A stretch of DNA of 32,093 nucleotides from Negativicutes bacterium (GCA_009929485.1 SAAJ01000035.1:1-32093), one strand, 5' to 3'; positions 21,359-26,143 are shown, counted from the first letter of the stretch. Translations and numbers: made by a program. The notes: generated by a model from the sequence alone, not told the origin.

Positions 21359-22675
21359 TTATTTTTTCGCGGCGATGTCTTCCCAAAACTTCACATAGCT
21401 TTCGCGAGTCATGGGTGGGGTGTAGTCGGCGAGAATCGCTTCTGCTTCGGCGGCATGATCGTAAAGTAAGTCAATAATGGTGTGAGCCATGGCTTGCGCG
21501 GAAACCAGATAAGCCATGTCAGGATCGGAGACGCAGAAGTCTCGGGTATGAGCGTTGCCGCTAACGCCGCCAACCCAAGGGTGGGTGACAGGCATGATAT
21601 GGGAAAGATCCCCCATATCGGTGCTGGCGGCGTGATGATCCAGTTCCTCCACCTTGTCGGAGCCAACCAAAGCGGCGGCATTTTCTCGCAGCAAGGCGCT
21701 GAGGGAGGCTTCATTGCTTAAAGGAAGGTACCCTGGCAGGTCGGTGATTTCTACATCGGCGCCGATGGCCAAGGCGCCAGCTTGCAAGGCTCGGTCAATT
21801 TTAACGTTGGCGTCGATAATGGCGGGAACGGTACGCGCGCGGACATAGCTTTCCAGGCGAACGTCCGAGGGCACGACATTGACTAAGTCGCCGCCTTTGG
21901 TGATGATGGGATGAAAGCGTACATGGTCTTCGTCACGGAAGGTTTCCCTTTGGGCGTGAACGGCCATCATCGCCAACATGGCTGCATTGAGGGCGTTTAC
22001 GCCTTCGTGAGGAGCGCCGGCGGCATGGGCTTCGCGTCCTTTGTAATGAATGAGCTTGCCGATAAAGCCGTTACTGGTGCCGCCTACTTGGATAAGGCGG
22101 TCTCCTTCGCCAGTCGTGGAGAGATGCATCATCATGGACATGTCGATATCGTCAAAAGCGCCGATGCGGATCAATTCCGCTTTGCCGGCCAGAAAGCCCA
22201 ATTTTCCTTCGGTGCGCAGGCGGTTGCGGTATTCGATTTCTACATATTCTTCGGCAGGTACGGCAAAAGGGACTACATCGCCGTCTAATTCCTGCATGAC
22301 GCCGGACTCGGCCAAGCCGATGGCGCAGGCGGCCATGGCTGCAAGCTGCGCATGATGACCGCAGGCGTGAGCGGCGCCGGTTTCCGAGGAAGCCGCCGGA
22401 TGCTCATGGCAGATGACCGCATCCAGCTCGCCAAGTACGGCAATGGTGCGGCCGCTGCTGCGGCCTTTGAGGCGGCCCTTAACACCTGTTAGGGCTAGGC
22501 CTTGTTCGGAGGGGATCTTGTGCTTTTCAAACACAGCGGCAATTTTAGCGGCAGTTTTAGTTTCTTTGAAGCCTAACTCCGGCTCGCAGAAGACCGACTC
22601 GGCTAGGGAGAATATTTCTTCCTTATGCGCCTGAATGGCGGCGGTGACTCGCTGTTTGCATTCCTCTTTAGTCAT
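21359..22675 (-). CDS. M20D-family amidohydrolase (AbgB-like)
   Basis: A 438-residue metallohydrolase. ATG 22675 follows AGGAG by 8 bases; an in-frame GTG three codons earlier is too close to that site. Family features are ELDAV (about 83-87), the zinc-site HACGHHAQL (103-111), AEE (141-143) with the likely catalytic Glu, and GREAHAAGAPHEGVNAL in the dimerisation domain. M20D enzymes cleave amide bonds of N-acyl amino acids, p-aminobenzoyl-glutamate or similar compounds; the substrate here cannot be told. It is divergent from the DUF3100 membrane pair across 243 bases carrying a palindrome, so they probably form one system in which the membrane pair moves the substrate and this enzyme hydrolyses it in the cytoplasm. 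Confidence 0.87.
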   Translation of the reverse strand: MTKEECKQRVTAAIQAHKEEIFSLAESVFCEPELGFKETKTAAKIAAVFEKHKIPSEQGLALTGVKGRLKGRSSGRTIAVLGELDAVICHEHPAASSETGAAHACGHHAQLAAMAACAIGLAESGVMQELDGDVVPFAVPAEEYVEIEYRNRLRTEGKLGFLAGKAELIRIGAFDDIDMSMMMHLSTTGEGDRLIQVGGTSNGFIGKLIHYKGREAHAAGAPHEGVNALNAAMLAMMAVHAQRETFRDEDHVRFHPIITKGGDLVNVVPSDVRLESYVRARTVPAIIDANVKIDRALQAGALAIGADVEITDLPGYLPLSNEASLSALLRENAAALVGSDKVEELDHHAASTDMGDLSHIMPVTHPWVGGVSGNAHTRDFCVSDPDMAYLVSAQAMAHTIIDLLYDHAAEAEAILADYTPPMTRESYVKFWEDIAAKK

Positions 22676-22707
22676 GGTGAACACTCCTTGCGTTGCTTCT
22701 TGGCCCT

Positions 22708-22726
22708 TTTTAACATCATGTTAAAA
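22708..22726. promoter_or_regulatory. Perfect palindrome, candidate operator
   Basis: TTTTAACAT, C, ATGTTAAAA: 9-bp arms around one base. It lies 33 bases upstream of the amidohydrolase start, in the divergent intergenic region. A second inverted repeat, GTTATT with AATAAC, lies at 22798-22813. Either could bind the LysR protein encoded at 24418 or another regulator. Confidence 0.5.
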
Positions 22727-22857
22727 GAAGTAGACGTAATTAATACTCCTTAAGTATAAAGCTCCTATGCAAGGAGAACAAGTGGCGAAAAAAGGTGGTT
22801 ATTGGCGAATAACAAACAAGAGAAGGGAAAATAGATGTATTTTCTTTCTTTCTCAGT

Positions 22858-22886
22858 TTGACGCGGTAAATAGATAGTGATACCAT
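22858..22886 (+). promoter_or_regulatory. Probable promoter of the DUF3100 pair
   Basis: TTGACG (22858-22863) and TACCAT (22881-22886) are 17 bases apart. The leader to the TTG start is about 25 bases. Confidence 0.55.
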
Positions 22887-22918
22887 AATTTGCAATACGT
22901 GAAAGGGGGCGGAGAATC

Positions 22919-23719
22919 TTGAAGGTTTTGACGTCTTGGAAAGTGCATGCGTTGGCGTTGCTTCTCGTTGTGGTCTGCGAGGGCATCGGAACGCACAAAA
23001 TTCCTCTGGGACCAGGGGTGCTCTTATTTTTACCTATGTTATACGCTATGATTCTAGGCGCGTTTATCAGCTGGCCTAAACTGAAGGTTATGAAATTGCC
23101 GGAAATGGGCGTAGCTTCGCAGGTGCTGACGGTTGTGACTTTGCTGTTAGTTACTAAACTGGGGGTTATTATTGGACCTTCTGTGGCGAAACTGGCTCAA
23201 TCCGGCTGGACTTTGTCCATTCAGGAACTGGGGCACTTCTTAGGGACGGTAGTGCTGGGCCTGCCGTTGGCGTTGTTCCTTGGTTTGGGACGTGAGGCCG
23301 TAGGCGCTACGTTTTCTATTGACCGCGAGCCTAATATCGCTATTATTGCTGAAAAATACGGTTTGGATTCACCGGAAGGCCGCGGCGTTATGTCTGTGTA
23401 CATTTGCGGCACCGTCTTCGGGGCGGTTTGGCTGGGCCTTTTAGCGGGCTATTTAGCTGCGTTGCAAATATTTCATCCCTTTGCGCTGGCTATGGGCGCG
23501 GGCGTTGGTTCGGGGAGCATGATGGCGGCTGCGTCGGGGGCGCTAAAAGCCGTGCATCCGGAAATGGCGAACGAAATTTTGATGTATGCCGGTGCTGCTA
23601 ACTTGTTAACGACCATCGTGGGCATTTACTTCTGTCTCTTCATTTCCTTGCCGGTGACAAACTATCTCTATCGCGTTTTGTCGCCTATCTTGTCTCCGAA
23701 GGGAGGAAAGTCCTCATGA
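22919..23719 (+). CDS. DUF3100-type membrane protein
   Basis: A 266-residue protein starting at TTG 22919 after AAGGGGGCGGAG. About seven hydrophobic segments are visible. Conserved-looking blocks are GTHKIPLGPGVLLFLPMLYA near the N-terminus, FLGLGREAVGATFSIDREPN in the middle and a glycine/serine-rich GAGVGSGSMMAAASGAL near residue 197 that resembles substrate-binding stretches of carboxylate permeases. I recognise it as DUF3100, a family of unknown function, from memory. It overlaps the next membrane gene by 4 bases (ATGA) and is divergent from the M20D amidohydrolase. A transporter subunit is the best guess. Confidence 0.75.
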   Translation: MKVLTSWKVHALALLLVVVCEGIGTHKIPLGPGVLLFLPMLYAMILGAFISWPKLKVMKLPEMGVASQVLTVVTLLLVTKLGVIIGPSVAKLAQSGWTLSIQELGHFLGTVVLGLPLALFLGLGREAVGATFSIDREPNIAIIAEKYGLDSPEGRGVMSVYICGTVFGAVWLGLLAGYLAALQIFHPFALAMGAGVGSGSMMAAASGALKAVHPEMANEILMYAGAANLLTTIVGIYFCLFISLPVTNYLYRVLSPILSPKGGKSS

Positions 23720-24165
23720 TGCGTTTGCAGGAAACAATTGCCGTTATGGTTCTGTTCGGTCTGATTACCGTTGTGGGAAACATGATCGGCTACAAGCAGC
23801 CCTTTGGGGATTCCTTGATTGGATATGGAATATTGCTGGTGATTACGGTAGCGGGTATGATTTTGGCTAAAGTGGTGCCGGGAAAACTGCCAATGGTTTT
23901 CTGGGTGTCCCTGGTGGCGCTGCTTTCGACTTCGCAGCTTTCCCCTGTGGCTAAAGAGGTGACTCTCTATACCGGAAAAATTGACTTTTTGGCTCTTTGT
24001 ACGCCCATCTTGGCTTATGCAGGCTTGGGTGTCGGCAAGGACTTGGAAATTTTCAAAAAGATGTCCTGGCGCATTATCATTGTAGCTTTGGCGGTTTATA
24101 CAGGCACCTTTGTCTTTTCTACGGCCATTGCTCAGTTCATGCTGCATTTGGAAGGCGTTATCTAA
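23716..24165 (+). CDS. Small membrane partner of the DUF3100 protein
   Basis: A 149-residue hydrophobic protein with about five membrane segments. Its ATG 23716 overlaps the preceding stop codon, with GGGAGG upstream, so translation is coupled. Conserved-looking parts are GYKQPFGDSLIGYGILLVIT (about 25-44) and LCTPILAYAGLGVGKDLEIF (about 95-114). I know no named domain for it. The two proteins together would have about twelve membrane segments, the size of a complete secondary carrier, so this pair may be a split transporter. A terminator follows at once. Confidence 0.7.
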   Translation: MMRLQETIAVMVLFGLITVVGNMIGYKQPFGDSLIGYGILLVITVAGMILAKVVPGKLPMVFWVSLVALLSTSQLSPVAKEVTLYTGKIDFLALCTPILAYAGLGVGKDLEIFKKMSWRIIIVALAVYTGTFVFSTAIAQFMLHLEGVI

Positions 24166-24242: not shown

Positions 24243-24276
24243 ATGGTTCAGGGGGACGGTTCTCCTGAACCATTTT
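24243..24276. repeat. REP-like hairpin
   Basis: ATGGTTCAGG (24243-24252) pairs with CCTGAACCAT (24264-24273), with three further inner pairs and loop ACGGT. The core GGGGGACGGTTCTCCTG resembles hairpins associated with REP-type tyrosine transposases in Firmicutes; that link is from memory. Only four T follow, so termination is possible but weak. Confidence 0.5.
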
Positions 24277-24417: not shown

Positions 24418-25320
24418 ATGGAATTGCGATTGCTGAAGACTTTTTTGCTGGTAGCCCGGTTGCTGAACATCACTCAGGCAGCGGAACGCCTGAATTTTAC
24501 GCAGCCGGCTATTACGGCGCAAATTCATAATCTGGAAATCGCTGTAGGAGCGCGGCTTTTTACACGCAAGGGGAAGCGTTTGCTGCTAACCGAAGCGGGA
24601 CTGCGCCTGGTGGCGCACGCGGAGAGCATCTTGCTGCAGTGGGAGCAGGCTAAGGAAGAGCTGGCTGTGTACGCAGAAAATCGCGAGTCCTTGGTGTTAG
24701 GCGTATCCACGCAGCTGATTAATTATTTTTTACCGGATGTGCTGCGGCGGCTGCAAGAGAAAATGCCTCAACTGATTGTTAGTGTGGAAGTGTGCTCCAA
24801 TACGAAGACCGTACTGCAGGGCGTAGAAGACGGCCAGTTTGATTTGGGTCTGATTCACGGACGCAATTACTTGCGGCGCCTGAAGGAGCATGCTGTTTGG
24901 GGAGAAGATATTCTCTGGGTGATTGGCCAGAACTGTTCTTGGGAAAACGGGGACGTATTGCCCTTGGTTAATTTTAAGCAAGGCAGTGATTTTAGAGCCC
25001 AATGGGAGTTGGCGCGAGGCAGCCAGCCATATCATACGGTGGCTGAGTACAGTGATTCCGAAGCGGTCAAGCGGGCGGTGTTGAACGGCTTAGGGGCGGC
25101 CTATCTGCCCAAGACGCTGGTGCAGGAGGAGCTGCAGCAAGGAAAGCTGCGTTTAGCCGAGGGGCCGGCTTTACAGATGAAGATTTTTTTAGTACATCGT
25201 GTCAGGCAGACCTTTACTGCCGCTATGCAAGCGTTGCTTTGGCAGTTGAGTGAAAATTCCGCAGCCGAAGAAAGCTTGCTGACTCTTCTGGGGGAAATGG
25301 ATGCTTATAAAAATAAATGA
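24418..25320 (+). CDS. LysR-family transcriptional regulator
   Basis: A 300-residue regulator starting at ATG 24418 after a GGCGGTGAG site. Residues 1-60 form the winged helix-turn-helix (LLNITQAAERLNFTQPAITA, then GARLFTRKGKRLLLTEAG). Residues 88-285 are the periplasmic-binding-protein-like effector domain. The length is standard. It follows the DUF3100 pair in the same direction but behind a terminator and lies before an aspartate/glutamate racemase. It may control the amidohydrolase/DUF3100 system or the racemase. The effector is unknown. Confidence 0.9.
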   Translation: MELRLLKTFLLVARLLNITQAAERLNFTQPAITAQIHNLEIAVGARLFTRKGKRLLLTEAGLRLVAHAESILLQWEQAKEELAVYAENRESLVLGVSTQLINYFLPDVLRRLQEKMPQLIVSVEVCSNTKTVLQGVEDGQFDLGLIHGRNYLRRLKEHAVWGEDILWVIGQNCSWENGDVLPLVNFKQGSDFRAQWELARGSQPYHTVAEYSDSEAVKRAVLNGLGAAYLPKTLVQEELQQGKLRLAEGPALQMKIFLVHRVRQTFTAAMQALLWQLSENSAAEESLLTLLGEMDAYKNK

Positions 25321-25405: not shown

Positions 25406-26143
25406 ATGGCGATGATTGGAGTGCTCGGGGGTATGGGGCCCATGGCAACAGCGGATTTGTTTGTGAAGATGATTGAAAATACAAAAGCGCAGACCGACCA
25501 GGAACATCTTTCTATTTTGATTTATAACAATCCGCATATTCCTTCGCGCATTGACGCTATTTTACATGGGGCGCCCAGTCCGGAGGCGGAGCTGGTGCGT
25601 TCTGCGAAATTGTTGGAGCGTTCAGGGGCTAATTTTATTGTAATCCCTTGTAATACGGCGCATTTTTGGTTTGCAGCGGTGCAAAAGGCGGTGACTATTC
25701 CAGTATTGCATATTATTGATACCGTAGCGGAGCATTTGCTGCAGGCGCAAAAATATGAGGCGCAGGAAATCATGTTGTTTGCTACGGAGGCAACGATACG
25801 CACCGGGCTGTATCAACAGCGCTTGAGTCAAAAAGGCCTGGCCTTTTTGACGCCGCAGCCGGAAGAACAATGGCTTATTTCCCAGGCAATTGCCGAGGTG
25901 AAAAGCGGACACATAAATGGCAGTCCTTGCTTAGAACGGCTGAGAGAAATGATGGCGTGTTATAGTCGCAGCGGTGTGAAAGCGTTTATTGCCGGCTGTA
26001 CGGAAATTCCGTTGCTTTTTGCCAAAGTGCAGGGGGAGTTTAAAACGGTGGACCCTACGCTGCTTTTAGCGCAGCGGGCGGTTCAACTGGCGCGCAAGCT
26101 GGAGCGCAAAGAACAAGAACGTGCGGTGTGTATACGGGTATAA
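25406..26143 (+). CDS. Aspartate/glutamate racemase family protein (RacX/YgeA-like)
   Basis: A 245-residue protein starting at ATG 25406, with AAAAGGAGG about 8 bases upstream. GVLGGMGPMATADLF (5-19) is the family's N-terminal signature. The two catalytic cysteines are in IPCNTAH (Cys82) and AGCTEIPL (Cys198), so a cofactor-independent two-base racemase is expected. The substrate could be aspartate, glutamate or a broader set of amino acids, as in RacX and YgeA. It has its own ribosome binding site after the LysR terminator. With the M20D hydrolase upstream, conversion of D-amino acids released by hydrolysis is one reading. Confidence 0.88.
   Translation: MAMIGVLGGMGPMATADLFVKMIENTKAQTDQEHLSILIYNNPHIPSRIDAILHGAPSPEAELVRSAKLLERSGANFIVIPCNTAHFWFAAVQKAVTIPVLHIIDTVAEHLLQAQKYEAQEIMLFATEATIRTGLYQQRLSQKGLAFLTPQPEEQWLISQAIAEVKSGHINGSPCLERLREMMACYSRSGVKAFIAGCTEIPLLFAKVQGEFKTVDPTLLLAQRAVQLARKLERKEQERAVCIRV

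Follow-up and report, generated by a model that had tools for sequence, protein, structure and literature searches.

What is encoded by two short, overlapping genes for hydrophobic proteins from which the gene of a hydrolase is transcribed away? The question is raised by a 32,093-nucleotide stretch of DNA from a Negativicutes bacterium (GCA_009929485.1, SAAJ01000035.1:1-32093; hereinafter, the window), in which the larger of the two membrane proteins belongs to the DUF3100 family (PF11299), the smaller one, of 149 residues, is denoted here P149, and the hydrolase belongs to the M20 family. A previous, sequence-only reading interpreted the membrane proteins as a split transporter that works together with the amidohydrolase on an amide-linked compound. 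The carrier-plus-hydrolase unit is real and widely conserved, and this core idea holds, whereas the details attached to it, namely a palindrome between the divergent genes, a LysR regulator, a racemase and a parallel with the Abg system, mostly fail. The reading frames for DUF3100, P149, M20, LysR and the racemase were all located where that reading had put them (Table 1), and the ATGA overlap between the DUF3100 and P149 frames is present at 23716-23719; the gap between the divergent M20 and DUF3100 genes, previously given as 243 bases, comes to 234 bases on recount. No description of DUF3100 or PF11299 was found in the papers searched.

DUF3100 is represented in 30 of the 60 sampled relatives, in 19 of the 249 genomes of a second sample and also in 70 plasmid records, with archaea included. 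The linkage to M20 genes recurs throughout. In the fetched Negativicutes neighborhoods (the window not counted), M20 adjoins DUF3100 in 25 of 29 cases, and among the 80 named GTDB loci, which were drawn from Negativicutes, Sutterellaceae, Morganellaceae, Orbaceae, Bacillaceae, Clostridium, Synergistaceae, Desulfovibrio and Neisseria, M20 is found near DUF3100 in 77, with two of the remaining three cut by contig ends. When the loci are reduced to a non-redundant set, M20 lies within 5.5 kb in 24 of 31, compared with one of the 40 control tiles taken from five genomes (p ~1e-11). Close M20 homologs and DUF3100 also co-occur across the 60 genomes (28 with both, two with DUF3100 only, one with M20 only and 29 with neither; p ~1e-13). 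The layout varies, with the M20 gene upstream or downstream in line, divergent or convergent. P149 adjoins DUF3100 in nearly every locus, and in a few loci the place of M20 is taken by another hydrolase, either an amidohydrolase/deaminase-type enzyme or a protein of the succinylglutamate desuccinylase/aspartoacylase family. That the hydrolase changes while the carrier stays the same is stronger evidence for a functional unit than any one neighborhood could provide, and we regard the functional pairing of the carrier with M20 as very likely.

The two membrane proteins very likely constitute one carrier made from two genes. Natural DUF3100-P149 fusions were found in several genera, namely in a relative of the window (G042), in three Megasphaera, and in plasmid records of Agrobacterium, Klebsiella, Psychrobacter, Arthrobacter and Variovorax; the five fusions from plasmid records were judged from the annotated gene length of approximately 427-462 codons. 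The packing of the two proteins against each other, which the split-transporter interpretation implies, is also predicted: an AlphaFold2 model of the Megasphaera paucivorans fusion, obtained with 36 paired alignment rows (predicted local distance difference test score, pLDDT, 82.2; predicted template modeling score, pTM, 0.77), folds both proteins into one known carrier fold. Because pooling DUF3100 and P149 as separate alignment rows misplaced P149 onto the other half, in-frame neighbors were used instead; for the rows built from them, the stop codon between DUF3100 and P149 was read through. When compared with known folds by VIA-align 2, the fusion model matched essentially one superfamily, with PaNhaP (Z 14.7), CitS (14.5), NapA (13.4) and ASBT (12.9), as well as NHE and SOS1, at the top; these alignments (Z 11.5-14.7, 227-298 residues) start at about residues 1-30 of the model, end at 444-450, and cover both halves. 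We therefore interpret the pair as most likely a single, split carrier with the predicted fold and packing of an NhaA-type elevator carrier. A sequence search of the PDB with both membrane proteins found no relative, and profile comparison with DUF819 and GltS yielded nothing above background. Of the approximately 12 membrane segments originally counted for the pair, the hydrophobic character stands but the simple count does not, given that the models contain re-entrant segments at DUF3100 residues 126-146 and 187-212 in addition to full helices.

The arrangement of these segments appears unusual. The model of the window DUF3100 alone (AlphaFold2; pLDDT 83.1, pTM 0.74) consists of a helix, a broken helix (126-146), a helix (152-182), a second broken helix (187-212) and a helix (214-258), and both broken helices fall within DUF3100 in the fusion model as well. 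The transport domain of LysO is described as having the order helix-IR1-helix-IR2-helix (TMS6-IR1-TMS7-IR2-TMS8, where IR1 and IR2 are the re-entrant segments; PMC8498466), which the predicted secondary structure of DUF3100 fits. DUF3100 alone aligns with CitS over 229 residues, from CitS position 49 to its end at 446 (Z 11.3), and CitS entries occupy the top five positions of the respective fold list (Z 9.6-11.3), followed by NhaP/NapA (6.3-7.3), with the first unrelated row at 4.4. In contrast, the whole pair aligns only as far as CitS 385-387, NhaP 352, ASBT 244-251 and NapA 319, short of the target ends. It follows that the last canonical segment seems to be contained in DUF3100, with P149 replacing the middle segment, and, both re-entrant segments being located in DUF3100 as in LysO, the segment order appears permuted with respect to CitS/NhaP and LysO. 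Profile comparisons place most of P149 colinearly, albeit weakly, on residues ~262-370 of the 2HCT family (probability 6, E 0.006), P149 columns 106-144 on the LysO repeat (hhalign probability 69-85), and DUF3100 38-118 on the same LysO stretch (probability 31). No direct sequence match was detected between the C-terminal parts of DUF3100 and 2HCT, and a weak full-length comparison put DUF3100 162-235 on 2HCT 151-230 (probability 0.1), so that the argument for permutation relies on the structural ranges and the LysO-like order. On these models, a permuted order relative to LysO/CitS-like elevator carriers seems to us about evenly balanced between right and wrong. We do not assign the pair to the LysO family because P149 scores 18.8 bits against the PF03956 cut-off of 23.8, with no match for DUF3100, and because the essential acid of LysO-type IR2 (D261) is lacking, with acids present in at most 15 of 143 loci at any IR2 column. 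Separately, in several Negativicutes (L148-L167), LysO itself is split into two adjacent genes with the small half first, whereas in DUF3100-P149 the large one comes first.

The hydrolase of the window is an M20D enzyme, as initially assigned (TIGR01891, 171.7 bits against a cut-off of 153.75), with all M20 metal-ligand positions present (C108, H110, E145, E146, H187 and H379) and retained in 101-104 of the 104 linked homologs. Its best match in the PDB is 7yh4, 'Xaa-Arg dipeptidase' (E 7.3e-22), which we take to be human PM20D2. PM20D2 is a mammalian metabolite-proofreading enzyme, and we know of no carrier that partners with it. Identity to AbgB is 25%, and with AbgA there is only a local match. 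An obvious signal peptide was not seen in the N-terminal sequence of the M20 protein; hence cleavage is presumably cytosolic. Two M20 sub-clades pair with the carrier, one PM20D2-like and the other YxeP/CpsA-like (Bacillaceae, Synergistaceae, Neisseria and one Desulfovibrio). As an aside, Veillonella seminalis encodes a shortened carrier-linked M20 protein of 325 amino acids (L048:5268-6245, L106:6270-7247) in which the region equivalent to window M20 residues ~273-387, with one catalytic position in it, is absent.

What, then, might be transported? R136, E137 and E103 of DUF3100 are present in all 143 loci, R125 in 138 and E126 in 140, and E153 is nearly invariant as well. Transport-domain arginines bind substrate carboxylates in elevator carriers, GltPh and CitS among them, and the conserved Arg/Glu pairs of DUF3100 hint at a substrate that bears a carboxylate. 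Genes for serine/threonine (Ser/Thr) catabolism recur around distant DUF3100 loci: SdaAB and threonine ammonia-lyase in Clostridium thermopalmarium, L-serine ammonia-lyase in Agrobacterium and Klebsiella, Tdh and Kbl in Psychrobacter and in G290, Thr/Ser dehydratase and Rid in Sulfitobacter, SHMT in Synergistaceae/Acetomicrobium, and threonine aldolase in G247. The TdcA regulator is found near the carrier on plasmids of E. coli, Salmonella and Hafnia (the equivalog cut-off was passed by the two that were tested), and Bacillaceae loci repeatedly contain an aldehyde dehydrogenase together with a 3-hydroxyisobutyrate-dehydrogenase-like enzyme, the same annotated pair being present in Psychrobacter, Nitratireductor and Chelatococcus. 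These catabolic neighbors favor uptake and catabolism, and we consider uptake, rather than export, reasonably probable. A Ser/Thr-type substrate for the DUF3100 family is a tentative suggestion that we are inclined to doubt. The substrate in the window may differ from those of other loci because its M20 enzyme is of the PM20D2-like kind.

Taken together, these observations are compatible with a model in which DUF3100 would contribute the mobile transport domain (helix-IR1-helix-IR2-helix) and some of the scaffold of an NhaA/elevator-type secondary carrier, with P149 completing the scaffold. The carrier would import an amide-linked compound that bears a carboxylate, either a small peptide or an N-acyl amino acid, and would probably bind it through the invariant Arg/Glu pairs of IR1 (R125-E126 and R136-E137); the M20 enzyme would then cut the imported amide in the cytosol, releasing an amino acid. 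Given that the carrier is usually accompanied by an amide-cutting enzyme, the unit probably takes in and splits amino-acid conjugates or small peptides. We judge this model as a whole to be slightly favored; within it, we infer the transport direction, the substrate class, the role of the Arg/Glu pairs and the use of an operator.

Several observations weigh against this model. The Foldseek E-values are weak (best 4.7e-3), and even unrelated helical bundles can score as high as Z 13; for these reasons, the case for the fold rests on the one-superfamily list of matches together with the result for DUF3100 alone. The predicted fold gives no transport direction, and LysO, the closest characterized relative hinted at by sequence, is an exporter. 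The enrichment of Ser/Thr genes is modest (8 of 31 loci against 2 of 40 tiles, p 0.015) and partly circular, the queries having come from the same loci, and no Ser/Thr catabolic genes were seen around the window itself. Furthermore, two relatives (G007 and G043) and Thalassobacillus (L112) keep DUF3100-P149 without an adjacent M20 gene, and in Thalassobacillus the pair is adjoined by a peptide-type ABC system. The last observation, along with the resemblance of P149 to LysO, the LysO-type helix-IR1-helix-IR2-helix order in DUF3100 (PMC8498466) and the PM20D2 match of the window M20, would fit export, whereby M20 hydrolyzes dipeptides or faulty amides inside the cell, much as beta-alanyl-lysine is cleaved by PM20D2, and a LysO-like carrier expels the surplus or toxic product. 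However, the profile similarity to LysO is weak, its essential IR2 acid has no counterpart here, and catabolic enzymes and TdcA among the neighbors are typical of uptake loci, so that we consider such an exporter rather unlikely.

The composition of the carrier and the neighborhood itself can be questioned as well. DUF3100 could be a complete carrier on its own, with P149 as a small accessory or regulatory subunit, and the fairly confident solo model with its 229-residue alignment on CitS is in line with this possibility; yet DUF3100 is hardly ever found without P149 and in several genera forms a single protein with it, the model of the full-length protein outscores the solo one and aligns through P149, and P149 matches the middle segment of CitS (2HCT) colinearly, if weakly, which together make a self-sufficient DUF3100 improbable. 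With 12 M20 genes in the genome of the window, the adjacency of one of these to two unrelated membrane proteins would arise there by chance at about 0.8%, but an accidental neighborhood is refuted by the statistics on linkage and co-occurrence, which span many lineages, and we give it practically no credence.

The regulation of the locus was examined through the repeats in the gap between the divergent genes. The perfect palindrome with 9-bp arms, which the sequence-only reading had pointed out as a feature of the gap, is indeed present and arises in 0.65% of dinucleotide shuffles of the gap. Because it is one of five repeats of comparable quality in the window and because both congeners have lost the left arm within an otherwise highly conserved gap, it is not a conserved operator and was rejected as such. 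The GTTATT-N4-AATAAC repeat appears to be the better operator candidate, with no second copy in 1.45 Mb of fetched loci, although the whole gap is conserved. Elsewhere in the window, the inverted repeat ATGGTTCAGGGGGACGGTTCTCCTGAACCAT at 24243-24273 belongs to a dispersed element, with 34 GGGGACGGTTCT-type units in the genome against two for the reversed control, often in facing pairs about 40 bases apart, and resembles REP-type palindromes.

Among the remaining neighbors, the LysR regulator and the racemase, which had been counted as parts of the system, are found next to the carrier only within the genus of the window and are excluded as core components. The passing of the CuyB cut-off by the racemase would point to sulfonate, not aspartate, metabolism in this genus. 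Other recurrent neighbors (radical SAM, adenosine deaminase, LarA racemase and aldehyde dehydrogenase) are lineage-bound and were likewise rejected. In four loci (L049, L054, L072 and L073), the gene immediately upstream of DUF3100 encodes the LarA-type nickel-dependent lactate racemase, of which the single one tested scores above the NCBIfam equivalog cut-off. In Pelosinus and relatives (L051, L053, L056-L058, L105, L107 and L108), DUF3100 is preceded by a ~440-residue protein without a Pfam match but with a helix-turn-helix-like C-terminal end, possibly a DUF3100 regulator. The TdcA, DUF3100, P149 and M20 genes are found together on a conjugative IncF plasmid of E. coli (L221) and on a Salmonella plasmid (L222); on the latter, a gene with the annotation 'enterotoxin A family' lies ~3 kb from the carrier cluster.

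Table 1. Features of the carrier-hydrolase locus and its surroundings, in window coordinates
Feature	Position	Strand	Remarks
M20 (M20D/PM20D2-like) amidohydrolase	21359..22684	-	441 aa, GTG start; PF01546 and PF07687; TIGR01891 over cut-off
Perfect 9-bp-arm palindrome TTTTAACAT-C-ATGTTAAAA	22708..22726	.	left arm lost in both congeners
GTTATT-GGCG-AATAAC inverted repeat	22798..22813	.	candidate operator; both arms present in the window and in both congeners
DUF3100 membrane protein, larger carrier half	22919..23719	+	266 aa, TTG start; PF11299 E 1.5e-95, 319.6 bits against gathering cut-off 27
First re-entrant segment (IR1), codons of DUF3100 residues 126-146	23294..23356	+	predicted helices 126-130/136-146; contains E126, R136, E137; R125 directly before
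Second re-entrant segment (IR2), codons of DUF3100 residues 187-212	23477..23554	+	predicted helices 187-194/199-212; glycine/serine-rich; no conserved acid
P149, smaller carrier half	23716..24165	+	149 aa; adjacency and fusions with DUF3100; Pfam matches weak and below threshold, one of them to Lys_export
Imperfect 19-nt inverted repeat, terminator-like, just 3' of P149	24175..24216	+	
LysR regulator	24418..25320	+	neighbor kept within the window's genus only
Asp/Glu-racemase family gene	25406..26143	+	NCBIfam cysteate racemase CuyB, 233.6 bits against cut-off 190; neighbor kept within genus only

DUF3100 is a widespread membrane family, and with a predicted fold and a hydrolase partner assigned to it, a role as a carrier of conjugated amino acids or peptides becomes testable. 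Because the carrier exists naturally both split and fused, and because its segments appear permuted with respect to LysO and CitS, it is also a useful case for studying the construction and rearrangement of elevator carriers. A more far-reaching possibility, to which we give somewhat less than even credence, is that DUF3100-P149 represents a separate elevator family, a circular permutant of LysO in which the middle segment of CitS/NhaP has moved to the end as a gene of its own, and which, with interchangeable M20 hydrolases, forms a dedicated uptake-and-cleave unit for amide-linked amino acids on plasmids and chromosomes of bacteria and archaea.

Each of the known systems resembles this unit in part. 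The layout of a carrier, an M20 hydrolase and a LysR gene is shared with AbgT and AbgA/AbgB, which function in p-aminobenzoyl-glutamate uptake, and this part of the proposed parallel stands; kinship does not, given that BLASTP detects no similarity between AbgT and DUF3100 (best 18.1 bits, E 0.34), by which an AbgT relationship was ruled out, that two M20 subunits there contrast with one M20 gene beside the pair here, and that the window M20, distant from AbgB, has its best PDB match in PM20D2. With PM20D2 (Xaa-Arg/beta-alanyl-lysine dipeptidase), the hydrolase shares the metal-binding motifs, but the mammalian enzyme is involved in metabolite proofreading, whereas the window M20 adjoins a carrier. 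The NhaP/NapA sodium-proton antiporters and the ASBT bile acid symporters (CPA/BART) are similar in the predicted fold (Z 12.1-14.7) but show ~6-13% identity and have one broken helix per half, in contrast to the two within DUF3100. For CitS and the other 2HCT sodium-citrate symporters (PF03390), the predicted fold extends over both halves, DUF3100 alone matches as well, and P149 falls on the middle segment; nevertheless, there is no family-level sequence match and the segment order seems permuted. LysO is absent from the fold lists, perhaps because, to our knowledge, its structure has not been solved. This exporter of L-lysine and thialysine (YbjE, PF03956) has the same contiguous helix-IR1-helix-IR2-helix transport domain, is often encoded by two genes and is matched by the profiles, whereas DUF3100-P149 differs from it in falling below the family cut-off, in having no conserved IR2 acid where D261 is essential in LysO, in the reversed gene order and in the M20 partner.

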